Positions 8,410 through 46,989 of a DNA stretch of 64,000 nt are shown here, one piece after another. Under the pieces are notes generated by a model. The model was given only the letters and a program-made list of their open reading frames with translations, did no database searches and was not told the DNA's origin. Every line of letters starts with the position of its first letter. The first letter of the stretch is position 1. Position numbers and translations under genes: made by a program. The stretch comes from Salipiger bermudensis HTCC2601 (GTDB taxonomy: Bacteria; Pseudomonadota; Alphaproteobacteria; Rhodobacterales; Rhodobacteraceae): assembly GCF_000153725.1 (NCBI RefSeq), contig NZ_DS022277.1, positions 219,342 through 283,341 on the forward strand. Direction: 5' to 3'.

Positions 8410-9417
8410 TCAGATGGTGACGCAGATCTTGCCGAAATGCGCGCCGCTCTCCTGGTAGCGGAAGGCCTCGGCCAGCTCCGCCAGCGGGAAGCTGCGGTCG
8501 ATCACCGGCCGCAGCTTCAGCGCGTCGAGCGCCTTCACGAAGTCCTCTTGATGTTCGCGCGAGCCCACGATCAGCCCTTGCAGCCGCTGCTGCCGCGCCA
8601 TGAGCAGCGCGGTGGGGATCTCGCCCGAACGGCCCGTCAAGACGCCGATGAGGGCGAGATGCGCCCCCGGACGGCCGGCGACAATCGACTGCGACAGCGT
8701 CGCCGGTCCGCCGACCTCGACCACGATGTCGACGCCGCGACCGCCGGTCAGGCGGCGCATTTCCTCGCCCCATTCGGGCGTGCTGCGGTAGTTGATGACA
8801 TGATCCGCGCCGAGCTCGCGCAGGCGCTCGAGCTTGGCATCCGAGGACGAGGTCGCGATCACCGTCGCCCCCATCGCCTTGGCCAGTTGCAGCGCGTAGA
8901 TCGAGACGCCGCCGGTGCCGAGAACCGCGACAACGTCGCCGGCCTTGATGCCGGCATCCACCACCAGCGCCCGCCACGCGGTCAGGCCCGCCGTGGTGAT
9001 CGTCGCGGCTTCCTCGTGCGACCAGCCTTCGGGCGCGTGGGTGAACCAGGTCGCCGGCAGCGTGACGCGCTCGCGGGCATAACCGTCGCGACCGTCGCCC
9101 GGCGTGGTGGAGAAATCGCAGGGGCGCTCGTCCCCGGTCTGCCAGTCGGGGAAGAAGCCCGACACGACGCTGTCGCCCACCGCGAACGCGTCAACATTTG
9201 CACCGATCGCCTCGACCACGCCAGCGCCGTCGGCCATCGGGATGCGCCCGTCGGGAAGTGCACCCTCGACCGCACAGACGCGGTAGTCGTGGTAGTTGAG
9301 CGAGCTGGCATGGAGCCGCACGGTGATCTCGCCGGGGCCTGGGGCCGCCGGATCTGCAACGTCGCTCATCACCAGATTGTCGAGCCCGCCGGGCGCCTTG
9401 ATCGCCACCTGTTTCAT
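8410..9417 (-). CDS. Medium-chain (MDR) NAD(P)-dependent alcohol dehydrogenase/quinone reductase family
   Basis: A 335-residue medium-chain dehydrogenase. The GroES-like N-terminal half has PGPGEITVRLHASSLNYHDYRV and GAGVVEAIGANVDAFAVGDSVV. The Rossmann half has VLGTGGVSIYALQLAKAMGATVIATSSSDAKLERL (about 165-200). The usual zinc cysteines are absent, as in quinone-reductase-like members, so it is probably zinc-independent. The start at 9417 is preferred because the protein then begins directly with the first beta strand (MKQVAIKAPGG). It is the last gene of the minus-strand carnitine island, 121 nt after a class II aldolase gene. Its link to trimethylammonium compounds, for example handling an aldehyde or hydroxy intermediate, is inference from position only. 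Confidence 0.85.
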   Translation of the reverse strand: MKQVAIKAPGGLDNLVMSDVADPAAPGPGEITVRLHASSLNYHDYRVCAVEGALPDGRIPMADGAGVVEAIGANVDAFAVGDSVVSGFFPDWQTGDERPCDFSTTPGDGRDGYARERVTLPATWFTHAPEGWSHEEAATITTAGLTAWRALVVDAGIKAGDVVAVLGTGGVSIYALQLAKAMGATVIATSSSDAKLERLRELGADHVINYRSTPEWGEEMRRLTGGRGVDIVVEVGGPATLSQSIVAGRPGAHLALIGVLTGRSGEIPTALLMARQQRLQGLIVGSREHQEDFVKALDALKLRPVIDRSFPLAELAEAFRYQESGAHFGKICVTI

Positions 9418-9538
9418 GAGACTGCCTTTCGTCCTGTATCGTGTCGGCCCGCCGGAACGCGGGCGTTGGCGCTTACCTAGCCTGCAAAAAGGGCGCGGCC
9501 ATCCCGGCGCGCGCCCTGCTTGATGCCGGCCCGAGAGG

Positions 9539-10273
9539 TCAGGCGCGGTAGTCGCTGCCAAGCCCGTCGATGGAGCGCAGATGCGCCTCCCATTCGAGCT
9601 GCAGGTCACCGTCTTCCTCGTTCATCTGCGCGTATTGCGCATGGACATGGCTGGCGATCTCGTCATCCACAAGCCGCAGCGTCTGCCCCGACGACGTCGC
9701 CGCGACCTGGATCTCGCAGGCGCGCTCGAGGTAGAACATGTTGTTGAACATCTCCGCCGCGCTGCCGCCCGTCGCGATAAGCCCGTGGTTGCGCAGCACC
9801 AGCACCGGGTGATCGCCGAAATCGGCCACGATGCGCTCGCGCTCCTCGAGATCGAGCGCGATGCCCTCGAAGTCGTGATAGGCGATGCGGTTGTGGAACT
9901 GCAGCGAGATCTGGTTGAGCGGCAGAAGGCCCTCCTCCATGCACGACACCGCAACGCCCGCGCGGGTGTGGGTGTGCATGATCCACGCCGCATCGTGACG
10001 GTGCATGTGCACGGCGGAGTGGATGGTGAAGCCCGCCGGGTTCACCCGGTGCGGGCTGCCGTCGACCTTGTTGCCGTCGATGTCGATCTTGACCAGCGAC
10101 GAAGCGGTGATCTCTTCCCAGCGCCAGCCGTAGGGGTTGATCAGGAAATGCCCGTCCTCGCCCGGCACCCGGGCGGTGATGTGGGTGTAGATCAGGTCGG
10201 TGAACTTGTGCAGCGCCGCCAGCCGGTAGCAGGCGGCAAGCTCTTCGCGGGTCTGTTTCTCTTCAGGGGACAT
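9539..10273 (-). CDS. Class II aldolase/adducin family protein (first of two in the carnitine island)
   Basis: A 244-residue metal-dependent aldolase-fold protein. The expected zinc-site histidines are visible as H100 and H102 in AAWIMHTHTRAG and a third in LVLRNHGLIATG; the N-terminal LINPYGWRWEEITASSLVKID is the family's substrate loop. Members include fuculose- and ribulose-phosphate aldolases, MtnB dehydratase and many uncharacterised enzymes. It follows the carnitine dehydrogenase fusion by 15 nt on the same strand and is probably cotranscribed. A second, divergent class II aldolase lies at 21695. No step in known carnitine catabolism calls for such an enzyme, so its substrate here is unknown. 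Confidence 0.88.
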   Translation of the reverse strand: MSPEEKQTREELAACYRLAALHKFTDLIYTHITARVPGEDGHFLINPYGWRWEEITASSLVKIDIDGNKVDGSPHRVNPAGFTIHSAVHMHRHDAAWIMHTHTRAGVAVSCMEEGLLPLNQISLQFHNRIAYHDFEGIALDLEERERIVADFGDHPVLVLRNHGLIATGGSAAEMFNNMFYLERACEIQVAATSSGQTLRLVDDEIASHVHAQYAQMNEEDGDLQLEWEAHLRSIDGLGSDYRA

Positions 10274-10288
10274 GGCGATCTCCGTTGG

Positions 10289-11710
10289 TCAGTTGCGTTG
10301 GCCGACCGCACCACCTGCGCCCTCGGCGGGGCGTCCGGCGTGACGGGCGGCAAGGTCTTCGAGCGCCTGCGCCACTTGCGGCTCCGGCGGGCAGGCCCGG
10401 CGGGTGGTCAGGTCGGTGTGCAGCATCAGCGTCTCGATGGTGGCGGCAAGGCTGCCGTCCTCGGTCAGCACGCGATGGAAGAGCTTCATCTTCTTGCCGG
10501 TGCCCTCGAGCACCTGCGTGGTCACCGTGAGCAGCGCGCCCCGGTGCACCTCGTCGAGATAGCGGATGCGGGTGTCGACAGTGAAGAAACTCTTGCCACT
10601 CGCGACATAAGTTTCGTCGGCGCCCACAAGCTTCATCAGGCCATCCGTGGCCCAGGTGCCAAGCTCTAGATAGGCGGCCTCGTTCATGTGGCCGTTGTAG
10701 TCGGTCCAGGTGACCGGCACGGCGCGGCACGAGGTGATCGGCAGGCCGTCGATCTCGCCACCCGCGGCAAGCTGCGCCTCATGCGCGACGATGACACCCC
10801 CTGCCCCGCTCTCGGTGCGGCGCAGCCCGCGCAGGATGGCCACGAGATTGTCGTCCCGGAGCTGCTCGAGCTCCGCGATGCTCAGGTGGCCCGACTGGGC
10901 GTCGGACTGGTCGCTGATCGCCTCGACCAGCGCGGTATCGAGCTCGGGCACGTCGGTCAGCTTTGACCATGGCCAGTGCAGCGACGGGCCGAACTGCTCC
11001 ATGTAGCTAGCCATGCCGGCCTCGCCGCCGGCCAGCCGGTAGGTCTCGAAAAGGCCCATCTGCGCCAGCCGCAGTCCAAAGCCCATGCGCATGGCATCGT
11101 CGATCTGTGCCGTGGTGGCGATGCCGTCTCGGATCATCCACAGCGCCTCGCGCCAGATCGCCTCCTGAAAGCGGTTGCCGATGAAGGCGTCGATCTCGGT
11201 CTGCATCTCGAGCGGGTACATCCCGAGCGACTGCACCACTGGCAGGGCCTTTGCGCGCAGTTCGGGCGCCCCGGTGACCTCGACCAGCGGCAGCAGGTAG
11301 ACCGGGTTGAACGGATGCACCACCACCACCGGTGCACCGGTCGCGGCAAGGTCGGAGGCCTTGAAGCCCGAGGTCGAGGAGGCGATGAAGCCGCCCTCGG
11401 GCAGGAGCGCGGCGATCTGGTCATAAACCTTGTGCTTCAGCTCCCGCCGCTCCGAGACGCTTTCCTGCACCCAGTCGGCGCCTTGCACGGCGTCTTCGAG
11501 CGTGTCGCAGACGCGCAGCGCGCCTTCGGGCGGCAGAGGCCGGTCGTAGAGCGCCGGCAGCGAGGCGCGGGCGCGGTCGAGCACCGCCCCGACCTTGCGC
11601 GCGGCCTCGGGATCCGGGTCGAACAGCGCCACGTCCCAGCCGTTGAGCAGAAAGCGTGCCGCCCAGCCACCGCCGATGACGCCGCCGCCGATGATGGCTG
11701 CCCGGCTCAT
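10289..11710 (-). CDS. lcdH: L-carnitine 3-dehydrogenase fused to a 4HBT-type thioesterase
   Basis: A 473-residue two-domain protein. Residues 1-310 form a 3-hydroxyacyl-CoA-dehydrogenase-like NAD enzyme, with a Rossmann start IIGGGVIGGGWAARF, catalytic H132 in VVHPFNP and E144. This is the L-carnitine dehydrogenase type that oxidises L-carnitine to 3-dehydrocarnitine. Residues about 328-460 are a hotdog-fold acyl-CoA thioesterase with the signature TWTDYNGHMNEAAYL (D337, H341). Its stretch FFTVDTRIRYLDEVHRGALL is also typical. The fusion is known from carnitine-degrading Alphaproteobacteria, where the thioesterase domain is thought to release glycine betaine from betainyl-CoA. Its start overlaps the stop of the BKACE gene (ATGA), coupling consecutive pathway steps. 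Confidence 0.9.
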   Translation of the reverse strand: MSRAAIIGGGVIGGGWAARFLLNGWDVALFDPDPEAARKVGAVLDRARASLPALYDRPLPPEGALRVCDTLEDAVQGADWVQESVSERRELKHKVYDQIAALLPEGGFIASSTSGFKASDLAATGAPVVVVHPFNPVYLLPLVEVTGAPELRAKALPVVQSLGMYPLEMQTEIDAFIGNRFQEAIWREALWMIRDGIATTAQIDDAMRMGFGLRLAQMGLFETYRLAGGEAGMASYMEQFGPSLHWPWSKLTDVPELDTALVEAISDQSDAQSGHLSIAELEQLRDDNLVAILRGLRRTESGAGGVIVAHEAQLAAGGEIDGLPITSCRAVPVTWTDYNGHMNEAAYLELGTWATDGLMKLVGADETYVASGKSFFTVDTRIRYLDEVHRGALLTVTTQVLEGTGKKMKLFHRVLTEDGSLAATIETLMLHTDLTTRRACPPEPQVAQALEDLAARHAGRPAEGAGGAVGQRN

Positions 11711-12627
11711 GCGGGCACCGGCATGGCGCGCTTGACGAGGCCGAGCTGGTCGCGGACCTCCTGAGGCCCCATCAGCGAGGCGCCCATGTTGGACAGGATG
11801 CTGGCGGCCTTCTCGACGAGCTGCGCGTTGGTCGCCATCACGCCGCGCTCGAGATAGAGGTTGTCCTCAAGCCCCACGCGCACGTTGCCACCCGCAAGCG
11901 CCGCGGCGGCAACATAGGGCATCTCGTCTCGGCCAAGGCTGAAGGCCGACCAGGTCCAGCTTTCGGGGACGTTGTTCACCATCGCCATGAAGGTGTTCAT
12001 GTCGCCCGGCGCGCCCCACGGGATGCCCATGCAGAGCTGCACCAGCGCCGGATCGTCGAGCACGCCTTCCTTCACCAGCTGCTTGGCGAACCACAGGTGG
12101 CCGGTGTCGAAAGCCTCGATCTCGGGCTTCACGCCAAGCTCGGTCATCATCCGGCCCATGGCGCGCAGCATCTCGGTGGTGTTGGTCATCACGTAGGTGC
12201 CGTCACCGAAGTTCATCGAGCCGCAGTCGAGGGTGCAGATCTCGGGCAGACAGTCGCGGATATGCGCCATGCGCTCGGTTGCGCCCGCCATGTCGGTATT
12301 GGGACCGTCGAGCTCCATCGGGGTCTCGACATCACCGAAGGTCAGGTCACCGCCGGTGCCGGCGGTCAGGTTCAGCACCACATCCACCTCGGACGAGCGG
12401 ATGCGGTCGGTCACCTCGCGAAACAGCGCCCGGTCGCGGCAGGGCGCGCCGGTCTCGGGATCGCGGACGTGGCAATGCACCACCGCCGCACCGGCCTTGG
12501 CGGCATCGATAGCGGCCTCGGCGATCTCGGCCGGAGAGCGCGGCACGAGCCGGCTCTTGTCCTGCGTGGCGCCCGCGCCGGTGATGGCGGCGGTGATGAA
12601 GGGCTTGCGGTTCATCTGGAGGGTCAT
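11707..12627 (-). CDS. BKACE-family 3-dehydrocarnitine:acetyl-CoA cleavage enzyme (DUF849)
   Basis: A 306-residue beta-keto acid cleavage enzyme. The TIM-barrel zinc site is visible as H51 and H53 in AAVVHCHVRDPETG, and the C-terminal GGNVRVGLEDNLYLERG supplies the conserved Glu. The family condenses a beta-keto acid with acetyl-CoA to release acetoacetate and a new CoA ester. One characterised subgroup converts 3-dehydrocarnitine and acetyl-CoA to betainyl-CoA and acetoacetate. That activity is assigned here from context: it directly precedes, and is translationally coupled by a 4-nt overlap to, the carnitine dehydrogenase-thioesterase gene. Nine nt separate it from caiD upstream. Confidence 0.9.
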   Translation of the reverse strand: MTLQMNRKPFITAAITGAGATQDKSRLVPRSPAEIAEAAIDAAKAGAAVVHCHVRDPETGAPCRDRALFREVTDRIRSSEVDVVLNLTAGTGGDLTFGDVETPMELDGPNTDMAGATERMAHIRDCLPEICTLDCGSMNFGDGTYVMTNTTEMLRAMGRMMTELGVKPEIEAFDTGHLWFAKQLVKEGVLDDPALVQLCMGIPWGAPGDMNTFMAMVNNVPESWTWSAFSLGRDEMPYVAAAALAGGNVRVGLEDNLYLERGVMATNAQLVEKAASILSNMGASLMGPQEVRDQLGLVKRAMPVPA

Positions 12628-12636
12628 AGGATCTCC

Positions 12637-13419
12637 TTACCGGCCTTTCCAGACCGGGTCACGTTTCTCGGCGAAGGCGCGGGCGCCTTCCTTCTGGTCC
12701 TCGGAGCGGTAGAGCCGCTCGACGGTCTCGAACTGGCTGCCATTGATGCGGTTGAGCACGTCCTGGAACTTCATGTCCTCGGCCTCGCGGGCGATCTCCT
12801 TGATCGCGGCAAAGACCAGCGGCGGGCCGGAGGCGAGTTCGTCCGCCATCTTGCGCGCCTCGGCCATCAGGTCCGCGGCGGGCAGGATACGGTTGATCAG
12901 GCCCCAGCGATGCGCCTCCTCGGCGTCGAACCAGCGCCCGGTAAAAAGCAGCTCCATCGCGATGTGGTAGGGGATGCGCTTGGGCAGCTTGATCGTCGCG
13001 GCATCGGCCACGGTGCCGGACTTGATCTCCGGCAGGGCAAAGCTGGCATGATCGGCGGCGAGGATGATGTCGGCGCCGAGCGCCAGCTCGAGCCCGCCGC
13101 CGCAGGCGATGCCGTTGACGGCGGCGATCACCGGCTTGTTCAGGCCGCGCAGTTCCTGCAGCCCGCCGAAGCCGCCGACGCCGTAATCGGCATCCGCCGC
13201 CTCGCCCTCGGCCGCGGCCTTCAGATCCCAGCCCGGGCAGAAGAACTTCTCGCCCTGCGCGGTGAGGATTGCCACGCGCAGCGCGGGATCGTCGCGGAAT
13301 TCGGTGAAGATCTCGCCCAGCTCGCGGCTCGTCGCCATGTCGATGGCGTTGGCCTTGGGCCGGTTCAAGGTGACTTCAAGCACCGCACCGCGGCGCGTCG
13401 TCAAGACGTTCTGGGTCAT
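12637..13419 (-). CDS. caiD: Carnitinyl-CoA dehydratase (crotonobetainyl-CoA hydratase)
   Basis: A 260-residue crotonase-superfamily enzyme that closely follows E. coli CaiD by memory alignment: ANAIDMATSRELGEIF, the long CaiD-type loop DLKAAAEGEAADADYG, and the C-terminus AFAEKRDPVWKGR, which is essentially identical. The two catalytic glutamates fall at E111 (GGGLELALGAD) and E131 (FALPEIKSG), the same positions as in CaiD. It hydrates crotonobetainyl-CoA to L-carnitinyl-CoA and back. In this island it would act in the oxidative direction after the acyl-CoA dehydrogenase at 15465. Its ATG overlaps the stop of the CoA-ligase gene (ATGA) and the BKACE gene follows 9 nt later. Confidence 0.93.
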   Translation of the reverse strand: MTQNVLTTRRGAVLEVTLNRPKANAIDMATSRELGEIFTEFRDDPALRVAILTAQGEKFFCPGWDLKAAAEGEAADADYGVGGFGGLQELRGLNKPVIAAVNGIACGGGLELALGADIILAADHASFALPEIKSGTVADAATIKLPKRIPYHIAMELLFTGRWFDAEEAHRWGLINRILPAADLMAEARKMADELASGPPLVFAAIKEIAREAEDMKFQDVLNRINGSQFETVERLYRSEDQKEGARAFAEKRDPVWKGR

Positions 13420-15461
13420 TCTTCCATCCTGATCAGGGCATCCGCCGCCACCGCGTCCGTGGCGCGGCAGATCAGCGGGTTGATTTCGATTTCGTGCAGG
13501 GCGCTCGCGTTGTCCTGCACAAGCGTTTGCAGGGCCATGGCGGTGTCGATGATCGCGTCCATGTCGGCCCCGGGGCGACCGCGGTAACCGGTCAGCAGCG
13601 GCGCGGTGCGCAAGGATTGCAACGCCGCCGCGATGTCGTCGCGGCTGGCGGGGATCAGCACCGAGGCGGTATCGCGGATGAGCTCGGTGAGAATGCCCCC
13701 GAGGCCCAGCGTCAGCACGAAGCCATGCGCCGGATCGCGCGTCACGCCGAGGATCAGCTCGGCGACGGTGCCGGTGATCATCTCCTCGACGAGGAAGCTC
13801 TCGGCCGGCATCCCTGCTGCCGCATCGCTGACCTCCTGCGCGGAGGCAAGGTTCAGCACCACCGCCCCGGCCTCGGTCTTGTGAGCGATGCCCTCGCCCT
13901 TGAGCACCACTGGAAAGCCGATCCGGGCCGCGGTCTCGGCCGCCGTGGCTGCATCCGCCGCGCGGCCCGAGCCGGGCACCCGAACACCGACGCCGCTGAG
14001 CAGCGCCTTGGCCTCGGCCTCGGAGAACACCCGCGCCGCGCCGCTGCCGTTCAACGGCAGGGTCACCGGATCGGGGCGCGCATTCCCCCCCGGCGGGACG
14101 GCGACAGCGGCGCGGATCGCCTTCAGTGCATCGCCCATGCCGCAGAGCGGCACGACGCCCATCTCAAGCGCCCGTCGCGCCACCGGCTCGGGCAGCCCTT
14201 CCGCCAGCAGCGAGACCATTGCCATCGGAGTGCCCGTCGCATCGCGGGTCTTGGCCACGGCGCGCAGCACCTGATCGTAATCGGGCGCGTCGAACCGGTC
14301 ATCACGCGGGTAATCCACCACCACGCAGCCCAGGCCAAGCGCCGCCCCGGCATCGCAGAGCGCCGTGAAGGTCGCCGTCAAAGCGTCTTCGTCGCCCCAG
14401 ATATAGGTGTTGTAATCCAAGGGATTGGCCAGCGCGACCTTAGGGCCGAGCGCGGCGCGCAGGCCGGTCTTCTGGGTGTCGGTGAGCGCGGGGTACGCGA
14501 CCCCGGCGATCTCGCCCATGTCGGCCATCAGCGAGGCTTCACCGCCCGAGCACGACGCAGAGGCGATGCGCGCAGAGCGCAAGCCCCCGGTGACATGCAG
14601 GATCTTCAGCGTCTCGACCAGCTCGGTCGGGGTCTCGACCTGCGCGATGCCGAGGCGGCGCAAAAGCGCCCGTGCCCCCGCGTCCGAACCGGTGAGCGAG
14701 GCGGTGTGCGACACCGCCGCCGCCTGCGCCTGCTCGGACGAGCCGACGCGCAGCGCGACAATGGGCTTGCCCAGTTCGGCGGCGCGGGCGGCCAGCGCCT
14801 CGAAGGCCGGCAGATCGCTGATCCCCTCGATATGCAGGCCAAGCGCGGTGATGCGCGGATTTTCCAGCAGCGCGATGCCGAGGTCCGACATCGAGGTCTG
14901 TGCCTGATTGCCCGCCGCGACAACGGCGGCGAGCGGCAGGCCACGGCGCTGCATGGTCAGGTTGATGAGCACGTTCGACGACTGGCCGATCACGGCCACG
15001 CCGCTCTCGACCGGGCTCATGCCGTGCCGGTCGGGCCAGAGCGCGACACCGTCGAGCGCGTTGACAATGCCGTAGCAGTTGGGGCCAAGCACGCGCATCT
15101 CGCCCGCGGCCTCCACCAGCTCTGCCTGAAGGTCATCGCCGTCGGCAAGCTCCGAAACCGCTTCGGAGAAGCCGGCGGCGAAGCACACCGCGCCGCCGCA
15201 GCCCATCCTGGATAGGTCGCCCGCCATCTTGACGGTCAGTTCGCGGTTGACGCCGATGAAGGCGGCATCCGGCACGCCGGGCAGCGACGCGAGATCGGGA
15301 TAGGCCGGCTCGCCGCCGACCTCCGACTTCTTGGGATGCACCGGCCAGATCGGACCGGTGAAGCCGGTGGCGCGGCACTGGCGCACCACCGCCTCGCACC
15401 ATGCGCCGCCACCGATCACGGTGATGGCCTTCGGCGAGAAGAAACGGCTCAGCGGCGACAT
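13416..15461 (-). CDS. NDP-forming acyl-CoA synthetase (acetate-CoA-ligase/Pat-like, no acetyltransferase domain)
   Basis: A 681-residue fused alpha-beta NDP-forming CoA ligase. An N-terminal CoA-binding domain (FFSPKAITVIGGGAWCEAVV) and CoA-ligase domains hold the phospho-histidine in AAAVSHTASLTGSDAGARAL. A C-terminal ATP-grasp domain starts near residue 460 (AKALLSGVGVRVPGSGRAADA, GFPVVLKGEGIAHKTEAGAV). It lies between the acyl-CoA dehydrogenase gene (3-nt gap) and caiD (4-nt overlap), so it is the obvious candidate to activate gamma-butyrobetaine and/or carnitine to the CoA thioester. Enterobacteria use an AMP-forming ligase (CaiC) and a CoA transferase (CaiB) instead; neither is present here. 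Substrate assignment is inference from context. Confidence 0.87.
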   Translation of the reverse strand: MSPLSRFFSPKAITVIGGGAWCEAVVRQCRATGFTGPIWPVHPKKSEVGGEPAYPDLASLPGVPDAAFIGVNRELTVKMAGDLSRMGCGGAVCFAAGFSEAVSELADGDDLQAELVEAAGEMRVLGPNCYGIVNALDGVALWPDRHGMSPVESGVAVIGQSSNVLINLTMQRRGLPLAAVVAAGNQAQTSMSDLGIALLENPRITALGLHIEGISDLPAFEALAARAAELGKPIVALRVGSSEQAQAAAVSHTASLTGSDAGARALLRRLGIAQVETPTELVETLKILHVTGGLRSARIASASCSGGEASLMADMGEIAGVAYPALTDTQKTGLRAALGPKVALANPLDYNTYIWGDEDALTATFTALCDAGAALGLGCVVVDYPRDDRFDAPDYDQVLRAVAKTRDATGTPMAMVSLLAEGLPEPVARRALEMGVVPLCGMGDALKAIRAAVAVPPGGNARPDPVTLPLNGSGAARVFSEAEAKALLSGVGVRVPGSGRAADAATAAETAARIGFPVVLKGEGIAHKTEAGAVVLNLASAQEVSDAAAGMPAESFLVEEMITGTVAELILGVTRDPAHGFVLTLGLGGILTELIRDTASVLIPASRDDIAAALQSLRTAPLLTGYRGRPGADMDAIIDTAMALQTLVQDNASALHEIEINPLICRATDAVAADALIRMEE

Positions 15462-15464
15462 GGC

Positions 15465-16625: not shown

Positions 16626-16702
16626 GGGTCACCCTTTTCTTTGGGTCGGGAGTGTGTGGGTTGCAGGGGGAGAGCCGCGCCGCTCCGGCGGCGCAGGTCG
16701 GG

Positions 16703-17521
16703 TCAGGCGCCGCGGGCCCGTCGTTCCTTGCGCATGAGCATGGCGGCACGGATCACAACCAGTACCGTGACCACGAGGATCAGCAGCACCGACAGCGCGG
16801 CGATGGCCGGATCGACATTGTCGCGCAGGCCCATCCACATGCGGCGCGGCAGGGTGATGGTCTCGACCGAGGTGACGAAGAGCGTCACGCCGATCTCGTC
16901 CCAGCTCAGCAGGAAGCAGAGAAAGAACGCGCCCAGCAGGCCGAAGCGGATGTTGGGCAGGATCACTCCGAAGACGCGGGTCGGCACGCTGGCGCCCATC
17001 GACTGGGCGGCAAGATCCATGCGCCGGTCGAGCTGGCTGAGCGAAACCATGATGACCACCACCGCATAGGGTACGATCATCACCATGTGGGCCAGCACCA
17101 CGCCGCCGAGCTTGTCGTAGGCGACAAGCGAGTTCCACCGCGCCAGCTGGTTGAGAAAGAAGTAAAGCGTCAGCGACGACACCACCGGCGGCGCCACCAT
17201 CGGCAGCAGCACGAAGCCGGTCATCAGCCCCGCGCCGCGCGGGCGCAGCATCCAGATGCCGATGCAGAAGGCCGCGGCGAGCGCCACCGCCAACAAGCTC
17301 GCCAGCACGCCGACCTGCACCGAGGTCAGCAGGCTGCTGCCCCAGTCGGGATCCCCGAACAGCGCGGTGTAGTGGCGCCAGGACCAGTCGCCATTGGGCA
17401 GCGACAGGTAGCGGCGCGAGGTGAAGCTCACCGGCACCACCGCGATCAGTGGCATCAGCAGGAACAGCGCGACGAGCGAGGAGAGAAGCGTGGCGAGCAC
17501 GCCGGGACGAAGCCGGTTCAT
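16703..17521 (-). CDS. ABC importer permease, PotC-like
   Basis: A 272-residue inner-membrane permease of the spermidine/putrescine (type I) importer class with about six helices and the EAA-type loop AAQSMGASVPTRVFGVILPNIRFGLL (about 175-200), which docks the ATPase. The start at 17521 overlaps the stop of the partner permease by 4 nt (ATGA); the open frame further upstream is out of register with family N-termini. It forms the transmembrane channel with the permease at 17518 and is served by the binding protein at 18384 and the ATPase at 19588. Its position directly before the gamma-butyrobetainyl-CoA dehydrogenase gene suggests uptake of a quaternary ammonium compound. Confidence 0.88.
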   Translation of the reverse strand: MNRLRPGVLATLLSSLVALFLLMPLIAVVPVSFTSRRYLSLPNGDWSWRHYTALFGDPDWGSSLLTSVQVGVLASLLAVALAAAFCIGIWMLRPRGAGLMTGFVLLPMVAPPVVSSLTLYFFLNQLARWNSLVAYDKLGGVVLAHMVMIVPYAVVVIMVSLSQLDRRMDLAAQSMGASVPTRVFGVILPNIRFGLLGAFFLCFLLSWDEIGVTLFVTSVETITLPRRMWMGLRDNVDPAIAALSVLLILVVTVLVVIRAAMLMRKERRARGA

Positions 17522-18327
17522 TTTGCCATCTCCCCGTAACGACGCATGAGGATGAAGAGGATGCCGCCGACCCCGAGCATCAGCACGACGCTCATCGCGG
17601 CGGCCATGCCCCATTGCGGGATCTGGAAGAGCCAGAGGTAGATCAGCTCGGCCACCAGCACCGATTGTCCGCCGCCCAGAAGCGCGGGCGTGACGTAGAA
17701 GCCGATGGAGAAGACGAAGACCAGCAGCGTGGCGCCCATGATGCCGCTGGCGGTCATCGGCAGGAACACCTGCCAGAAGATCCGCAGCCGCGAGGCCCCC
17801 ATGCCGTCGGCGGCCGTGAGCACGCGCTCGTCCACATTGCGCATGGCGGTGGCGAGCGGGAAGACCGCGAAGGGAATGAGGTAGTGGGACATGCCGACGA
17901 CGACGGCAAACTCGTTGCGGGTCATCTGGATGGCGCTGTCAATCAGGCCGAGATCCTGCAGCCAGGTGTTGAGCAGGCCACGGTTCGAGAGCATCGACAG
18001 CCAGCCGAAGGCACGGCTGAGCACCGAGATCCAGAACGGAATCATGATGCAGAGCTCGGTGATCGAGCGCACCAGCGGGCTGCCCCGCACCCAGAGCAGG
18101 GTGATGACATAGGCGCAACTCACCGACACGGCGGTGACGATGACGCAGAGCCGCAGGGTCCGCCAGATCACACCGGTCGGCAGATCCTCGGTCAGCACGC
18201 GGCCATATTGCGCGAGCCCCGGGTCGGGGTCGGTAAAGCTGAGCTGCACGATCCCGAGGAACGGCAGCAGGTAGCTCGCTCCGAGAAACAGCAGCACGGG
18301 ACAGATGAGAAAGAGAACGGGGCGCAT
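17518..18327 (-). CDS. ABC importer permease, PotB-like
   Basis: A 269-residue type I ABC permease with six predicted helices and the EAA-type motif AADGMGASRLRIFWQVFLPMTASGIM. The chosen start (MRPVLFLICPVLLFLGASYLLPF) puts the first helix at the N-terminus as in PotB/PotH proteins; earlier in-frame starts overlap the 3' end of the binding-protein gene. A strong GC hairpin occupies the spacer before it. It is partner of the PotC-like permease at 16703. Confidence 0.88.
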   Translation of the reverse strand: MRPVLFLICPVLLFLGASYLLPFLGIVQLSFTDPDPGLAQYGRVLTEDLPTGVIWRTLRLCVIVTAVSVSCAYVITLLWVRGSPLVRSITELCIMIPFWISVLSRAFGWLSMLSNRGLLNTWLQDLGLIDSAIQMTRNEFAVVVGMSHYLIPFAVFPLATAMRNVDERVLTAADGMGASRLRIFWQVFLPMTASGIMGATLLVFVFSIGFYVTPALLGGGQSVLVAELIYLWLFQIPQWGMAAAMSVVLMLGVGGILFILMRRYGEMAK

Positions 18328-18340
18328 GGAGGCTCCTTGA

Positions 18341-18372
18341 CGCCGCCCCCGACCACTGGGACGGGGGCGGCG
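18341..18372 (-). terminator. Perfect 11-bp GC hairpin between binding-protein and permease genes
   Basis: CGCCGCCCCCG (18341-18351) and CGGGGGCGGCG (18362-18372) are perfect complements around a 10-nt loop, 11 nt beyond the stop of the binding-protein gene at 18384. No U-tract follows. This is the position where importer operons often carry a stem that stabilises or partially terminates the binding-protein message, giving excess binding protein over permease. Confidence 0.6.
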
Positions 18373-18383
18373 GTTTCGGGGGA

Positions 18384-19496
18384 TCAGGCGGAGATGATCT
18401 GGAGATACGCGTCGAGCGCGGCGCTGTAGTTCTCCTCGTACCACGCCATGTCGAGCGCCACCTGCTTGGGCAGGTTCGCCGGGTCCATCGGGTTGAAGCG
18501 GCGCTCCTCCTCGGGGATCAGCGCATCCGCCGCCGGGTTGGAGGGGCCGTTGCCCAGCATCTGGAACAGCACCACCTGGCGCTCGGGCTCCTGGGTCGCC
18601 GCGATGTAGTTCATCGCCGCTTCCTTGCCGCCCGGGTTGTCCTTGAGCACGCCGATGCCGCCCGGGCCGATGATGCCGTCATCCCACGTGAAGGTGATCT
18701 CGCCCTCGGTGTCCTTGTGCAGCAGGCTCGCGCGGGTGTTCCAGATCAGCGCCATGGAGACATCGCCGTTGAGCAGCAGCGACTGGCTTTCGGCACCGCC
18801 GCCCCAGAACGCACCGACATGCTCCTTGAAGGCCTCGATCTTGGCGTGCGCCCGGTCGAGATCGAGCGGGTAGAGATCCTCGGGCGCCACGCCGTCGGCC
18901 AGCAGCGCCGCTTCCCACATGCCGGCGCCCCACTTGTACATCGAGCGCTTGCCGGGGAATTTCTCGGTGTCGAAGAAATCGGCCAGCGAGGTCGGCGGGG
19001 TGTCGTACTTGGTCGCGTCGTAGGCAATGACGTAGCTGTAGAAATAGCACGACGACGAGTACTCCCAGTGGAAGCCCTCGCGCTGCTTGGCCGGGTCGAC
19101 CACGTCATAGTCGATCGGCTCCATCATGCCTTGGCGACCCAGCGCCTGCGACGAGAACGGCTCGGCATCGACGAGGTCCCAGGTCGGACGGCCGCCCTGC
19201 ACCTGCGCAGTGATTGCGCCCTCGGTCGGGCCGGAACCGTCATAAAGCACGTTGATGCCGGTTTCCTCGGCGAAGGGCTGGCCGAAGGCCGCGTCCATGG
19301 CGTCGAGCGCGTCGCCGCCCCAGTTCACGAACACCAGCCGGCCCTCCTGAGCCTGCGCGCTGCCGGCGCCGAGGCCGAGCGCGGTGGTGCCCATCAGGGC
19401 GCCCAGCCCCTGCAGCATCTGGCGGCGCGAGATCTGTCCCTTCGCGGTGCGTTCCTTGAGGATTTCCACGAGGTCGTTCTGGAAGTGATTGGTCAT
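18384..19496 (-). CDS. Tat-exported ABC solute-binding protein, PotD/spermidine-putrescine type
   Basis: A 370-residue periplasmic binding protein with a Tat leader: the twin arginines in ISRRQMLQGLGALMGTTALGLGAGSAQA (about 22-49) precede a likely cleavage after AQA. The mature protein has the family-13/PotD-like opening LVFVNWGGDALDAMDAAF and many aromatics (WEYSSSCYFYSYVIAY, KWGAGMW, FWGGG) that could form an aromatic cage for a cationic or trimethylammonium ligand. It is encoded between the ATPase (91-nt spacer with a GC-rich imperfect stem at 19536-19559) and the permeases, inside the carnitine island. Uptake of gamma-butyrobetaine, carnitine or a related betaine is therefore likely (inference). 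Confidence 0.9.
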   Translation of the reverse strand: MTNHFQNDLVEILKERTAKGQISRRQMLQGLGALMGTTALGLGAGSAQAQEGRLVFVNWGGDALDAMDAAFGQPFAEETGINVLYDGSGPTEGAITAQVQGGRPTWDLVDAEPFSSQALGRQGMMEPIDYDVVDPAKQREGFHWEYSSSCYFYSYVIAYDATKYDTPPTSLADFFDTEKFPGKRSMYKWGAGMWEAALLADGVAPEDLYPLDLDRAHAKIEAFKEHVGAFWGGGAESQSLLLNGDVSMALIWNTRASLLHKDTEGEITFTWDDGIIGPGGIGVLKDNPGGKEAAMNYIAATQEPERQVVLFQMLGNGPSNPAADALIPEEERRFNPMDPANLPKQVALDMAWYEENYSAALDAYLQIISA

Positions 19497-19587
19497 TGTC
19501 TCACCTGTTGCTTGGTTATCGGGTAGACCTTTCCCGCCCCGGGCGCTGAGGCGCCCCGGTTTCGCGGGATCGGCTGTCGGGAATTGG

Positions 19588-20640
19588 TCAGATGGCGAAG
19601 CTGTCGCGGGTGTCCCACACGACGTTCAGCTCGGCCCCCCGGTCCGGCGGCGGCAGGCCGGGGCCGTTGTCGAAGTAGAGCATCAGTTCCTCGCCGGCGC
19701 GGGTCTCGAGCAGCAGCCGCGACTTGGAGCCAAGATAGACCCGGTCGCGCACCCGTGCCGGAAGCTGGTTGCCGTCCCCTGCCGCGGCGAGGCGCATGTG
19801 CTCGGGGCGGATGGCGACATGCTCGTAAGCGGTTGCGCTCGCCGGCAGCTCGAGCGGCGTACCGGCGATGCCGCCGGCCTCGGCGTCGAGCGACAGGATG
19901 TTGATGTCGCCAAGGAACTCCGCGGTAAACCGGTTCGCCGGACGCTCGTAGACCTCGTCCGGGGTGCCGATCTGCTGCAACTCGCCGTGGTTGAAGATCG
20001 CGATGCGCGAGGACAGCGCCAGCGCCTCTTCCTGGTCGTGGGTCACGAAGACGAAGGTGGTGCCCAGATCGCGGTGCAGGCGCCGCAGCTCTTCCTGCAT
20101 CTGGCCGCGCAGGTTCTTGTCGAGGGCCGAGAACGGCTCGTCGAGAAGCAGCACCTTGGGTTCGTAGGCCAGCGCCCGCGCCAGCGCCACGCGCTGCTGC
20201 TGGCCACCGGAGAGCGCCTTGGGTTTCTTGTGCTCGTGGCCCGAGAGCCCGACCATCTCGACCATCTGCGCGACCCGGTCGGTGACCTGCGCCTTGGAGC
20301 GCTTCTGCACCTTCAGCGGGAAGGCGATGTTTTCGGCCACCGTCAGGTGCGGAAACAGGGCGTAGCCCTGAAAGACCATGCCGAAGCCGCGCTGGTTGGC
20401 CGACCACGAGGTCATGTCCTGCCCTTCCAGCATCAGCCTGCCCCGCGTCACCGGCTCATAGCCGCCAAGCAGCGTGAGAAAGGTGGTCTTGCCCGAGCCG
20501 GAGGGGCCCAGAAGCGAGAGGAACTCGCCTTCAGAGATTTGCAGGGAAACATCACGCAGCGCGTGGAACTTCCCGAATGTCTTTCCGACCGAACGTGCTT
20601 CGATCTGCGTTGTGTTCGACACAATCGCCTCGCTTTTCAT
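19588..20640 (-). CDS. ABC importer ATPase, PotA-like
   Basis: A 350-residue ATP-binding subunit of a spermidine/putrescine-type importer. Walker A is GPSGSGKTT, the signature is LSGGQQQRVALARAL, Walker B is VLLLDEPFSALD and the switch His is in FVTHDQEEA. A C-terminal TOBE-type regulatory region (about 270-350, AIRPEHMRL onward) completes it. The start is taken as ATG at 20640. A GTG 18 nt downstream (20622) has a well-spaced GAGG ribosome site and is a real alternative. It heads the transporter part of the island, 84 nt after the LysR gene at 20725. Confidence 0.9.
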   Translation of the reverse strand: MKSEAIVSNTTQIEARSVGKTFGKFHALRDVSLQISEGEFLSLLGPSGSGKTTFLTLLGGYEPVTRGRLMLEGQDMTSWSANQRGFGMVFQGYALFPHLTVAENIAFPLKVQKRSKAQVTDRVAQMVEMVGLSGHEHKKPKALSGGQQQRVALARALAYEPKVLLLDEPFSALDKNLRGQMQEELRRLHRDLGTTFVFVTHDQEEALALSSRIAIFNHGELQQIGTPDEVYERPANRFTAEFLGDINILSLDAEAGGIAGTPLELPASATAYEHVAIRPEHMRLAAAGDGNQLPARVRDRVYLGSKSRLLLETRAGEELMLYFDNGPGLPPPDRGAELNVVWDTRDSFAI

Positions 20641-20724
20641 TCCTGTCCGTGTTGGCCCAAGGGTGAGGCGGCAAGAGGTGAACTGCAAATGAAACTTATT
20701 CAGACGCTCGACAAACTTCTTTTG

Positions 20725-21633
20725 TCACGACTTCCGGATGGGTGTGAGTCTGGAGAATTCAATCTTAGATTTCAGCCACTTGTGGAATTCATCGACGATG
20801 GGATTCTCGACGTTCTCCTCTGGCGTGCAAATGAAATAACCCGTGCTCTCGTGCAATGATGCCGCGAAAGGCCGCATCAGACGCCCCTCGCGAAGATCCT
20901 TCCCCCACAGAACGGTGTCTCCGATGGCAATTCCCTCGCCCGCGAGAACCGCGGTGTGCACGATGTTCATGTCGGAATAGCAGATGCCGCGCCGGGCATC
21001 CTCGGAGGGCAGCCCCGAGAGGGTCATCCAGTCTTCCCAGTCGGTGAAGTCGCTCATGTGCAGAAGCGTTGCCTGCTGCAGGATGCGCAGGTCGTTGAAG
21101 CTCTTGAACCGGCTGAGATAGGCCGGGCTGCAAAGCGGCGTGAACTCGACCGAGAACAGCGGCACGCTCCTGAGATTGGCGCGCGGCTCGTGCCCGAAGG
21201 TGATGAAGGTGTCGATCTCGGGATTGGTGGTGTCGGCCATCTTGTGCGAGCTGAGCACCGTCACCACCACGTCGGGATGCTCGGCGATGAAATCGCCAAG
21301 GTGCAGGCACAGCCAGCCATCGGCAAAACCGGGCGTGGCGCTGATCGTCAGCGAGCCGGTGAGCCCCTCCTGCGCCACCCGCGCGGTGGAACTGGCGATC
21401 ATGCTCAGCGCGCGGCGCACGTCCTCGGCATAGGCACGGGCGCGGGGGGTGATCTCGGACTTGTTGCCGCTGCGCTCGACGATCTTGAAACCGAGATCGG
21501 CCTCGAGCAACCGCAGCTGGTGGCTGATCGCGCTGCGGGTGACGTTGAGCTCGGCCGCGGCACGCCAGAGCGCACCGTTGCGGGCGACGCTCTCGATGGC
21601 GCGCAGCGCCTGGATGGAAGGATAGCGTTTGAT
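20725..21633 (-). CDS. LysR family regulator (GcvA-like) with an apparently non-canonical ATC start
   Basis: A LysR regulator of about 302 residues. The N-terminal helix-turn-helix reads IKRYPSIQALRAIESVARNGALWRAAAELNVTRSAISHQLRLLEADLG, and the C-terminal effector domain includes GEGIAIGDTVLWGKDLREGRL. Homologues begin at the K-R-Y-P position. Here the codon in that place is ATC, correctly spaced after a GAGG ribosome site, and there is no in-frame ATG, GTG or TTG between it and the stop of the upstream aldolase. The nearest ATG (21753) lies inside the aldolase gene and would add 40 atypical residues. Translation may start at ATC, may be coupled, or the base may be wrong. It sits between the dioxygenase/aldolase pair and the ABC importer and probably regulates the island. 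Confidence 0.8.
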   Translation of the reverse strand: MKRYPSIQALRAIESVARNGALWRAAAELNVTRSAISHQLRLLEADLGFKIVERSGNKSEITPRARAYAEDVRRALSMIASSTARVAQEGLTGSLTISATPGFADGWLCLHLGDFIAEHPDVVVTVLSSHKMADTTNPEIDTFITFGHEPRANLRSVPLFSVEFTPLCSPAYLSRFKSFNDLRILQQATLLHMSDFTDWEDWMTLSGLPSEDARRGICYSDMNIVHTAVLAGEGIAIGDTVLWGKDLREGRLMRPFAASLHESTGYFICTPEENVENPIVDEFHKWLKSKIEFSRLTPIRKS

Positions 21634-21694
21634 GACGGGCCTCGCGCGTGGATGCCCCCGCTGGATACACCGGCGGGGGCTGTCATGCGAGGGC

Positions 21695-22426
21695 TCAGAG
21701 CGCCGGAAGCTGCGCCTTGAGGAAGGCAAAGTGCCGGTCGGCCATGCCCGCATAGGCACGCCAGCCATCGGCGGTGTTCTGCGCCACCGCGTCCGAAAGC
21801 ACCGCCAGCGGCGCGCCTGTCGAGCGCGCGAGGATCAGGGTCTGCGCCGCCTTCTCGAAGAAATAGAGATCCTCGAAGGCCGCGGCGACCGTGTCGCCAA
21901 CGATGGTGACGCCGTGGTTGCCCATCACCAGCACCGACTTGTCGCCAAGCCGCTCGGCCAGCCGCTCGCCCTCTTCCTCGGCATCGGCGATGCCGCCGAA
22001 GTCGAGATCATAGGCGGTGCGCCCATAGAACCGCGCCGTGTTGTTGTCGATCGGCACGACGGTGGGATCCTTCAGGCAGGCCAGCGCCGTGGCATAGGGC
22101 GAATGCGCGTGCAGGACCACCCGCGCCTCCGGCTTCTTGCGGTGCAGCGTGCCATGCACGCACCAGGCCGAGGCATCCGGCGCCCCCTGCCCCTCCAGCA
22201 CCCGCCCGTCGCGGGCATCGATGCGCAGCAGGTCCTCGGGGCGGATGGTGGCAAAGTGCTGCCAGCACGGGTTCAGCAGGAACGCGGCGCCATCTTCGGA
22301 CACCGCCGCGCTGAAGTGGTTTCCGACGGATTCGCTCCATCCCATCTGGTGGCAGATCCGGAACGCCGCCGAGAGATCCTGCCGCAGGGCGGCAGTCTCT
22401 TCGTCGGGAAGGCTGTGCGCGTTCAT
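21695..22426 (-). CDS. Class II aldolase/adducin family protein coupled to the gamma-butyrobetaine-type dioxygenase
   Basis: A 243-residue class II aldolase-fold protein. Metal-site histidines are H106 and H108 in ARVVLHAHSPYATAL and a third in VLVMGNHGVTIVG; the region FLLNPCWQHFATIRPEDLLRID is the family's substrate loop. Its ATG overlaps the stop of the dioxygenase gene (ATGA), so the two are translationally coupled and probably work on the same route. It is only distantly similar to the aldolase at 9539. Candidate roles, all inference, are retro-aldol cleavage of a hydroxylated trimethylammonium substrate or handling of a by-product. Confidence 0.87.
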   Translation of the reverse strand: MNAHSLPDEETAALRQDLSAAFRICHQMGWSESVGNHFSAAVSEDGAAFLLNPCWQHFATIRPEDLLRIDARDGRVLEGQGAPDASAWCVHGTLHRKKPEARVVLHAHSPYATALACLKDPTVVPIDNNTARFYGRTAYDLDFGGIADAEEEGERLAERLGDKSVLVMGNHGVTIVGDTVAAAFEDLYFFEKAAQTLILARSTGAPLAVLSDAVAQNTADGWRAYAGMADRHFAFLKAQLPAL

Positions 22427-23562
22427 GCCTTGAACCGCCCTTCGCTGACCAGCGCGCGATAGGTCGAGCGCATCTCGGCCCGGTCGGTGTAGCAGCCGCG
22501 CAGGTAACGGTCGCCGCTTTCGGCAGTATAGGCGGCGCGGCCATGCACGATGCGGTGATTGTCGAACACCATGCATTCGCCCGCCTTCATCAGGAAGGTC
22601 ATCATGTATTTCTCTTCCTGCAGCATCTTTCCGAAGCGGCAGAAGGCCGGGTACCAGCTGTCGAGCATGTGCTGGTCGAGATCGGAGAGGTCAAGCATGT
22701 GCTGGCTGATCGTCAGGCCCGACACTTCGCCATGCTGGTCGAGCTCGATGATCGTCTGGCGCGAGCGCATGTCGTAATGGTCATGCTCGCAGAAGAACGG
22801 CACCGGCACCTCCGAGAGAAGCTTGAACCCCTCGGGGTCGCGGGTGCGGAAGTCGTTGGCCACCGCCACGCCATCGGCGTAGAGGCTGTTGCCGCCATCC
22901 ACGGTGTTGGCACGGCAATGCAGGAACTGCACGCCCGGCGCGTGCTCTTCGGCGGGGGTGTCGGTGTGCAGCTCCAGCGCCGAGGCCGTGTAGGCGGTGT
23001 TGGTCGGGTTGATGTGGGTCTTCACGTCGAAATAGTCACCGAAAAAGGTCGGACGCACCTGACCGATCATCTCGGCCGTCTCGGTGAGGCCCGCGTTGCT
23101 GTCGGGCATGTCGGTGAGGATTGTGAAGCCCTCGACCAGCATCGCCTCGATCCACTTGGCGCGCAGCGCCTCGTCTGCCAGCAGCTCGGGCTGGCTGAAG
23201 CGCGGCACGTCCGGGTAGTGATCGCCATACCACGCCTTGCGCGGCAGGTCCGCCGGATCGGGGCGGCGCTGCGGCACCTTGTAGGCCTCGAGCCATGCGA
23301 TGGGGAAGCGGGTGACGTGGTCTTCGGCTTCCCAGGTCAGTTCGAGCGCGTCGCCGGCCACTTCGGCGGTCTTCGCCCGCGGCGCCGCGTCGAGGTGGAA
23401 GATGTCGAAGCTGCGCTCACGGGTGGCCGCGCTGAACGAGCTCGGGCAGTTGTCGCGCAGCCAATGGAAGTTGAAGTAATGGCTTTCACCGTCGGAGAGG
23501 ATAATCTCGAGCCCCTTGTCCTTGAGGACCGGGGCAGCCACGGGGGAGGTCATGACATTCAT
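22423..23562 (-). CDS. Gamma-butyrobetaine hydroxylase-type Fe(II)/2-oxoglutarate dioxygenase
   Basis: A 379-residue two-domain enzyme of the gamma-butyrobetaine/trimethyllysine dioxygenase family. The small N-terminal domain has the hallmark HWLRDNC (33-39). The TauD-like catalytic domain carries the iron triad H199-x-D201 (LELHTDTPAEEH) and H340 (DNHRIVHGR), with an Arg at about 352-355 for 2-oxoglutarate. The mammalian BBOX zinc cluster after RDNC (CPCSDC) is reduced to a single Cys (C39), so the zinc site is probably absent. The start at 23562 is the first Met after the divergent promoter; Met4 is an alternative. The predicted reaction is gamma-butyrobetaine to L-carnitine; trimethyllysine hydroxylation is the main alternative. 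It diverges from the LysR gene at 23681. Confidence 0.9.
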   Translation of the reverse strand: MNVMTSPVAAPVLKDKGLEIILSDGESHYFNFHWLRDNCPSSFSAATRERSFDIFHLDAAPRAKTAEVAGDALELTWEAEDHVTRFPIAWLEAYKVPQRRPDPADLPRKAWYGDHYPDVPRFSQPELLADEALRAKWIEAMLVEGFTILTDMPDSNAGLTETAEMIGQVRPTFFGDYFDVKTHINPTNTAYTASALELHTDTPAEEHAPGVQFLHCRANTVDGGNSLYADGVAVANDFRTRDPEGFKLLSEVPVPFFCEHDHYDMRSRQTIIELDQHGEVSGLTISQHMLDLSDLDQHMLDSWYPAFCRFGKMLQEEKYMMTFLMKAGECMVFDNHRIVHGRAAYTAESGDRYLRGCYTDRAEMRSTYRALVSEGRFKA

Positions 23563-33401: not shown

Positions 33402-33403
33402 GA

Positions 33404-46821: not shown

Positions 46822-46886
46822 GATTTCCGCCAACATCACCTCACCAAACAAGAAACATAAACCGTTGCCCCACAACCAATGGATGC

Positions 46887-46926
46887 GCATAGTAGCTATG
46901 CCCGAGCCACATATGTCGCAAGACAT
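46887..46926. promoter_or_regulatory. Two inverted repeats upstream of the giant surface-protein gene
   Basis: GCATAG-TAG-CTATGC (46887-46901) and ATGTC-GCAA-GACAT (46913-46926) are perfect inverted repeats lying 64-103 nt before the ATG at 46990, in the A/T-rich 168-nt spacer. They are candidate regulator-binding sites for expression of the giant gene; the binding protein is unknown. Confidence 0.4.
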
Positions 46927-46989
46927 GCGCCGCCTGGGGACAAGGTGGCGAGATTTGGGCAGATTGGAACTCAGTTCTGGAATTTTGAC

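Follow-up and report, generated by a model that had tools for sequence, protein, structure and literature searches.

Does the carnitine gene island of Salipiger bermudensis HTCC2601 encode two independent ways of turning gamma-butyrobetaine (GBB) into L-carnitine? The question concerns a stretch of 64,000 nucleotides (contig NZ_DS022277.1, positions 219,342 to 283,341; called the window in the following), in which a dioxygenase gene, DIOX, shares one island with the genes of a coenzyme A (CoA) dependent route. According to the initial annotation DIOX would be a gamma-butyrobetaine dioxygenase (BBOX) that forms L-carnitine directly, parallel to the CoA route. We arrive at a different reading, to which we give about an even chance: the island comprises two adjacent units, an operon of the Sinorhizobium meliloti kind leading from GBB to glycine betaine and a LysR-controlled module of DIOX and ALD1, a class II aldolase-fold protein. 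The module would not be a second route from GBB to carnitine but would serve the hydroxylation and subsequent C–C cleavage of a cationic acid. The conserved gene pair is probably a two-step, so far unstudied pathway for a GBB-related compound.

The open reading frames of the window and family-model scans place the whole island in one co-directional run on the minus strand, from position 23562 down to 8410, and its genes are located as had been described. Two class II aldolase homologues had been passed over, one of which, ALD1, is encoded by a gene overlapping that of DIOX.

Conservation of the DIOX–ALD1 pair

DIOX (positions 22423 to 23562, minus strand) belongs to the BBOX/TmpA group of the TauD-family Fe/2-oxoglutarate (2OG) dioxygenases and carries a GBBH-like N-terminal domain (PF02668, 143.5 bits; PF06155, 32.9 bits); its genome has no other PF02668 match at E ≤ 0.001. 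ALD1 (21695 to 22426, minus strand) is a class II aldolase/adducin-fold protein of the PRK07490 family and scores 350 bits with NF005689 (cut-off 260 bits), a family named just "hypothetical protein". The two genes share four bases, ATGA, at 22426–22423. The partner of the pair is a divergently oriented gene for a LysR-type regulator (23681 to 24574, plus strand), which was identified by a tblastn match to annotated LysR genes only.

The two-enzyme module is widespread, a genome scan having returned 246 related stretches, of which the best 80 (at least 65% identity, some ended by contig ends) were compared. ALD1 follows DIOX directly in 76 of these 80 loci, and 62 of the 76 show the ATGA overlap; the loci without ALD1 are L075, L085, L087, and L135. 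A divergent LysR homologue lies upstream of DIOX in 72 loci. The trio of DIOX, ALD1, and LysR also resides on plasmids of Palleronia, Pseudooceanicola, Agrobacterium vitis, and Sulfitobacter, and DIOX–ALD1 on a plasmid of Thioclava. No paper discussing this pair of a dioxygenase and a class II aldolase was found in the open-licence literature; a report on SAR11 (PMC12421898) lists such genes in one island.

The substrate pocket of DIOX

The nearest solved relatives of DIOX are TmpA (204 bits) and, after it, human BBOX (150 bits). With the specific family models DIOX remains below the cut-offs for gamma-butyrobetaine dioxygenase (TIGR02409, 287.1 bits and thus 127 bits short of 414.75), TmpA (NF049936, 285.5 versus 400 bits), and trimethyllysine dioxygenase (TIGR02410, 181 versus 268.3 bits), the first two scores being practically tied. 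A tree of 51 rows, which took 14 of the 80 loci and in which long branches are flagged among the outer rows, places the clade of the window together with a sister subclade in a starred group of 31 rows separate from TmpA. The AlphaFold model of DIOX was poor (pLDDT 60.2) and was not used.

The residues of the pocket were compared across the 80 loci, leaving out the broken copy of DIOX in genome G010 (L030). The Fe ligands H199, D201, and H340 and the 2OG-binding R352 are each kept in all 80. In BBOX of Pseudomonas AK1 (psBBOX) the aromatic cage consists of F184, F188, Y201, and Y368 (PMC4736438). This cage was mapped onto DIOX through the family alignment with a constant offset of 10; the corresponding residues are F174 (79/80), F178 (80/80), Y191 (78/80), and Y358 (80/80), so the cage is retained. 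The first anion-binding Asn, N188, is likewise kept in 80 of 80. The region of N292/N293 of human BBOX, in contrast, reads S286-Q287-H288 in every locus, which means that the second carboxylate-binding Asn is lost. According to PMC9296572 this stretch carries N292-N293 in human BBOX and N287-R288 in TmpA. The phosphonate ligands of TmpA (N187, N287, and R288) are not all matched either, since DIOX has N188, Q287, and H288. Five of seven relatives that are about 36–40% identical to DIOX retain Asn at the 292 position. By the scores below cut-off and the pocket residues, DIOX as a plain BBOX, TmpA, or trimethyllysine dioxygenase was rejected.

The sister subclade departs from this pattern: in all four sequences examined (among them L057:8983-10134 and L058:8980-10125) a Glu replaces one cage residue and a Phe replaces a cage Tyr, even though the annotation of one member reads gamma-butyrobetaine dioxygenase. 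QIE43398.1, which is annotated in this way, has a Glu in the cage by alignment.

ALD1 and the class II aldolase fold

The alignment of ALD1 orthologues has 76 rows, of which 75 are readable at the relevant sites and one is gapped there. The metal-binding His triad of FucA is kept (H106, H108, and H171; 75/75), and the catalytic pair of FucA is absent: Glu73 is replaced by Ala in 75 of 75, and the column of Tyr113 holds Asn. The same two residues are missing from NovR and TqaM in our alignment and from POD as described in PMC5216522 and PMC11841055. POD has a substitute Glu 19 residues ahead of its third His. A Glu at this substitute position is kept in all 75 readable ALD1 orthologues.

The AlphaFold2 model of ALD1 (pLDDT 90.5) finds its best Foldseek matches in NovR, the uncharacterised Pseudomonas protein 3ocr, POD, and TqaM, with E values of 1e-17 to 1e-16, and E. 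coli FucA ranks lower (1e-10 to 6e-11). A FucA-type aldolase role for ALD1 was rejected on the loss of Glu73 and Tyr113 and on this fold ranking. NovR oxidatively decarboxylates an alpha-hydroxy acid, and the PDB titles label NovR and TqaM as non-haem iron enzymes. PMC5216522 describes POD as a dioxygenase that depends on Fe(II) and shares homology with class II aldolase. ALD1, whose fold and metal ligands are seen in the model and the alignment, most likely belongs to the NovR/POD/TqaM type and would then depend on non-haem iron and O2.

Linkage of the module to carnitine genes

The distribution of the module was compared with that of two markers: CDH, the carnitine 3-dehydrogenase–thioesterase fusion, and ACAD, the CoA-route acyl-CoA dehydrogenase. 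Nine of 20 genomes of the genus have an intact DIOX, and both CDH and ACAD are present in eight of these nine versus two of the other 11 (Fisher test, p 0.0055, taking no account of kinship). Individual genomes separate the two units. In Salipiger mucosus (G008, L113) the pair is present and neither CDH nor ACAD was detected; in G012 module and CoA unit are on different contigs, and in G037 they are about 20 kb apart. DIOX is missing from G007, which does have the CoA unit; in G010 the CoA unit is intact, and next to it DIOX is broken and just a short remnant of ALD1 is left.

A wider sample of 50 genomes was obtained by way of DIOX loci, namely 46 of the 60 that have no carnitine genes nearby and four that do. 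At the thresholds used, 38 of these genomes have CDH and ACAD, one has CDH only, none has ACAD only, and 11 have neither. The 11 genomes with the module but neither marker argue against carnitine as the product of DIOX. Moreover, 38 of the 39 genomes with CDH also have ACAD, so the dioxygenase does not behave as a substitute for the CoA route.

At the level of gene neighbourhoods, at least 20 of the 80 loci have one or more of the genes for ACAD, the CoA ligase, CaiD, BKACE, and CDH (>50% identity) within 10 kb of DIOX; this is a lower bound, as contig ends cut some loci. The co-clustering that had been pointed out as unusual is thus real, and it is recurrent rather than a one-off. Six arrangements occur: 11 loci have the order of the window, two have the genes downstream without the intervening transporter, one and two loci show two convergent orders, two have the genes upstream in an order shared with Sulfitobacter sp. 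W027, and two have BKACE and CDH only, upstream. This recurrent co-location in six arrangements argues for a functional link, and the module is separable from, yet linked to, the carnitine genes.

The other contexts of the module point to no single substrate. A 3-hydroxyisobutyrate/threonate dehydrogenase-like gene lies near DIOX in 10 of the 80 loci, mostly in Novosphingobium, and several of these loci add genes for an MR/MLE dehydratase, a choline-dehydrogenase-like GMC protein, and an aldehyde dehydrogenase. The same gene set surrounds the pair of the sister subclade on plasmids of Paracoccus seriniphilus and SC52. The neighbours of the trio in Agrobacterium vitis are the genes for electron transfer flavoprotein (ETF)-ubiquinone oxidoreductase, folD, and purU, which belong to one-carbon and demethylation metabolism.

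A lysine/arginine/ornithine-type ABC transporter and a pyridoxal phosphate (PLP) aminotransferase recur near the GBB cluster or DIOX (L149:2429-5315 on contig 5 of G044, L055:1-5578, L056:1653-7955, and L154:14362-19585), and some of these loci carry a 5-guanidino-2-oxopentanoate decarboxylase-like gene (NF005712, 704 bits, cut-off 500). The PLP aminotransferase is within 10 kb in seven of the 57 genomes with a match (G009, G010, G012, G014, G016, G037, and G044), whereas of 34 genomes that match the 2-oxoacid decarboxylase just two (G037 and G044) have it near DIOX or CDH. Given 2/34 and 7/57, an aminotransferase and decarboxylase feeding the pathway from a trimethylated amino acid is a possible lead only and not a general one.

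Possible functions of the module

DIOX–ALD1 has the layout of TmpA/TmpB with a different second enzyme, which favours a hydroxylation followed by a metal- and O2-dependent C–C cleavage. In that system TmpB cleaves the product of TmpA to glycine betaine. The preceding step is, according to PMC9296572, the hydroxylation of trimethylaminoethylphosphonate by TmpA. From the gene pairing, the residues, the fold, and the distribution we infer substrate class, metal, and reaction as follows. As the conserved cage suggests, the substrate hydroxylated by DIOX would be a carboxylic acid that differs from GBB, is cationic, and probably bears a trimethylammonium group. ALD1, by its predicted fold and ligands, would then break a C–C bond of the hydroxylated product in a metal/O2-dependent reaction, and the product would enter the same quaternary-amine metabolism as that of the carnitine operon.

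A more specific version makes the module the carboxylate counterpart of TmpA/TmpB: DIOX would alpha-hydroxylate a betaine, and ALD1, with Fe(II) and O2, would oxidatively decarboxylate the alpha-hydroxy acid to a betaine one carbon shorter. We put this forward tentatively and regard it as unlikely in exactly this form. If it were true, beta-alanine betaine would give glycine betaine directly, explaining the genomes without carnitine genes, and delta-valerobetaine would give GBB, feeding the adjacent CoA route.

Several observations weigh against the two-unit reading. First, neither TIGR02409 nor NF049936 is decisive. Four of 148 relatives exceed TIGR02409; the two that were aligned, the Rhodobacteraceae proteins of G050 (424.3 bits) and G073 (418.9 bits), both group in the TmpA clade, which makes the model not fully specific, the passers outside that alignment being on contig 118 of G091 and in G145. 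Passing the TIGR02409 cut-off as sole proof of BBOX was rejected, since TmpA-like proteins pass too. Second, BBOX activity is possible for DIOX, as the cation of GBB is the right one and a carboxylate could still be bound by Q287. Third, given the cage Glu in the sister subclade (4/4), trimethylammonium binding may be entirely absent from the wider clade. Fourth, the identity of ALD1 to NovR, POD, and TqaM is just 20–24%, and within three orders of magnitude in E its model also matches the Mn-dependent decarboxylase 2z7b, 4xxf, which is labelled a fuculose-phosphate aldolase, and adducins. Fifth, CDH and ACAD co-occur anyway (54 of the 63 CDH genomes among the 148 relatives have ACAD), so the 38:1 split says little alone, and two of the 11 genomes lacking CDH are uncultured or metagenome assemblies, completeness not being told for genomes reached through loci.

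The best surviving alternative is that DIOX is a true gamma-butyrobetaine dioxygenase making L-carnitine in parallel to the CoA route, with ALD1 incidental or a handler of by-products. Besides its kinship to TmpA and human BBOX, the retained cage, and the one remaining anion-binding Asn, it can draw on L078 and L125, which hold just BKACE and CDH and no CoA-route gene within 10 kb. In the other 18 of the 20 loci, however, the co-location with CDH/BKACE is indistinguishable from a general co-location with the CoA route. The missed cut-off, the absence of the second carboxylate-binding Asn from all 80 loci, an overlapping partner conserved without a role in GBB hydroxylation, and the 11 of 50 genomes that carry the module but lack both CDH and ACAD also speak against the direct route proposed in the initial annotation, and we consider it possible but doubtful.

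There are, moreover, better candidates for a true bacterial BBOX by context in other clades. A dioxygenase of another clade lies 108 bases from CDH in G091 and bears the CxCxxC motif like human BBOX, and in G032 one lies 5.3 kb from CDH; both genomes are without ACAD. The loci of such BBOX-group dioxygenases, adjacent to CDH where the CoA-route ACAD is missing, are L155:3934-6566 and L156:4698-13478. For a combination of BBOX and CoA route in one region, G044 would be a closer candidate than the window: it has a DIOX relative, 40% identical, that keeps Asn292, at a distance of about 7 kb to CDH and 12 kb to ACAD.

The pair might instead serve a non-quaternary, sugar-acid-like or guanidino compound, its position beside the GBB genes being secondary. 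The second recurrent context with the 3-hydroxyisobutyrate/threonate dehydrogenase-like gene and the MR/MLE, GMC, and aldehyde dehydrogenase genes, as well as the Glu in the sister-subclade cage, would fit this. The aromatic cage retained in the subclade of the window and the six independent arrangements beside GBB/carnitine genes do not, and we hold this explanation to be rather improbable.

The least probable alternative, DIOX as trimethyllysine dioxygenase and ALD1 as 3-hydroxytrimethyllysine aldolase giving trimethylaminobutyraldehyde and then GBB for the CoA route, has a linear pathway logic with the adjacent operon and the lysine/arginine/ornithine-type transporter and PLP aminotransferase of several relatives in its favour, but it is weakened by the TIGR02410 score, by the lack of a PLP fold in ALD1 where the known 3-hydroxytrimethyllysine aldolases are PLP enzymes (PMC11016064), by the absence of an aldehyde dehydrogenase from the island, and by the uselessness of such a pathway in genomes without CDH and ACAD.

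The question has consequences for annotation. Members of the BBOX/TmpA group are routinely annotated as gamma-butyrobetaine dioxygenase, as for QIE43398.1; if the clade acts otherwise, the carnitine-synthesis label on many Alphaproteobacteria is wrong. With ALD1, oxygenase function of the class II aldolase fold would further be known from a third context, something that Tsujino et al. (PMC5216522) suggested could be common.

The CoA unit and the remaining genes of the window

In the direction of transcription the island reads DIOX, ALD1, LysR, four Pot-type ABC transporter genes, ACAD, NDP-forming CoA ligase, CaiD-like hydratase, BKACE, CDH, ALD2, and zinc alcohol dehydrogenase; all of the genes described next are on the minus strand. 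Between the DIOX–ALD1 pair and the transporter genes lies a second LysR-type regulator (20725 to 21642, start assumed; PF03466, PF00126). The transporter consists of a PotA-like ATPase (19588 to 20688; PF00005, TOBE_2), a PotD-like substrate-binding protein (18384 to 19496; PF13416), and two permeases with uncertain starts (17518 to 18444 and 16703 to 17614; both PF00528). It is followed by ACAD (15465 to 16625; PF00441, PF02770, PF02771), the NDP-forming acyl-CoA ligase (13416 to 15461; CoA_binding_2, Succ_CoA_lig, ATP-grasp_5), the CaiD-like enoyl-CoA hydratase (12637 to 13419), the BKACE enzyme (11707 to 12627; PF05853, 324 bits), and CDH (10289 to 11710; 3HCDH and 4HBT domains). The sole thioesterase domain seen comprises residues 331–450 of the CDH fusion; the thioesterase mentioned twice in the initial annotation is therefore present, and it is one protein.

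CDH alone in this unit exceeds a specific equivalog cut-off (NF005716, 622.4 versus 592 bits). ACAD is below the model of E. coli CaiA (NF002885, 184 bits, cut-off 540), and the hydratase is below that of E. coli CaiD, crotonobetainyl-CoA hydratase (NF002936, 336.9 bits, cut-off 500). The five enzyme types of the S. meliloti-type pathway are nevertheless present in one cluster, including the dehydrogenase–thioesterase fusion, and this gene content supports the CoA route and the breakdown of carnitine to glycine betaine that had been read from the island. GBB would be taken up, converted to its CoA ester, dehydrogenated, hydrated, and released as L-carnitine, which would then be oxidised, cleaved by BKACE, and hydrolysed to glycine betaine. 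The unit is ordinary, given that among the 148 relatives CDH is found in 63 and ACAD in 58 and that CDH is found in 213 plasmid records. In Agrobacterium fabrum C58 and Leisingera caerulea S216 BKACE is beside CDH, with no dioxygenase inside the 8–9 kb shown. The two entries had also been thought to allow the use of GBB at different oxygen levels; as an acyl-CoA dehydrogenase hands its electrons to the respiratory chain and nothing points to anaerobic use, this idea is weak.

The carnitine operon is closed by ALD2 (9539 to 10273), the second class II aldolase/adducin-fold protein (PRK07044; NF005451, 358.3 bits, cut-off 207), in which the position of FucA Glu73 is Gly. The last gene encodes a member of the zinc alcohol dehydrogenase/quinone oxidoreductase family (8410 to 9609; PF00107, PF08240); its true start is probably near 9417, as the annotated homologue of Alloyangia pacifica aligns to 8413–9417 (89%).

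Upstream of the island, at 27122–35898, the minus strand encodes, among others, an LsrF-like aldolase (NF006081, 494.8 bits, cut-off 297), a glycerol-3-phosphate-oxidase-like FAD enzyme, and an ABC ATPase. Alloyangia pacifica has an annotated LsrB next to the same island. A plus-strand frame of 5707 codons occupies 46879–63999 and extends past the end of the window. The long minus-strand open reading frames opposite to it have a G+C content of about 0.9 at codon position 1 and look spurious.

Comparison with known systems

The CoA unit and the carnitine breakdown look like the published S. meliloti-type pathway. Bazire et al. in 2019 reportedly described the conversion of GBB via L-carnitine to glycine betaine in S. 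meliloti by a CoA ligase, an acyl-CoA dehydrogenase, an enoyl-CoA hydratase, BKACE, and a dehydrogenase–thioesterase. The island has the same enzyme set, judged by enzyme types, and differs in adding ALD2, the zinc alcohol dehydrogenase, the Pot-type transporter, and the preceding DIOX–ALD1 module. For the S. meliloti dehydrogenase fusion a passage citing the work ascribes a dual role, on carnitine and on betainyl-CoA (PMC12482172).

The Arctic SAR11 genomic island combines two BBOX genes with a class II aldolase, 3-hydroxyisobutyrate dehydrogenase, aldehyde dehydrogenase, choline dehydrogenase, carnitine dehydrogenase, and BKACE. Its authors interpret it as an island for taking up and producing glycine betaine; in the text consulted, the aldolase is not considered together with the dioxygenase. 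A CoA ligase, an acyl-CoA dehydrogenase, and CaiD, all present in the island of the window, are not among the genes named in that text and in the legend of Fig. 5 (PMC12421898).

With BBOX of human and of Pseudomonas AK1, DIOX shares the fold family, the Fe/2OG ligands, the cage residues, and the first anion-binding Asn; it differs in lacking the second Asn and the CxCxxC zinc motif of the human enzyme, in scoring under the equivalog cut-off, and in having a fixed partner gene. ALD1 has in common with NovR, POD, and TqaM, its nearest fold matches, the three metal-binding His and the absence of Glu73 and Tyr113 of FucA. It differs from them by the identity of 20–24% and by the pairing with a TauD-family dioxygenase on betaines, which is not known for NovR, POD, or TqaM.

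The closest parallel to the module as a whole is TmpA/TmpB. In Phyllobacterium sp. 628 a gene of the TmpA clade touches an HD-domain gene in the same way as DIOX touches ALD1. Both systems join a BBOX-family dioxygenase with an aromatic cage to a probably iron-dependent cleaving enzyme encoded by an overlapping gene. They differ in the second enzyme, a class II aldolase-fold protein in ALD1 versus an HD-domain oxygenase in TmpB, and in the pocket of the first, where N287 and R288 of TmpA are Q and H in DIOX.

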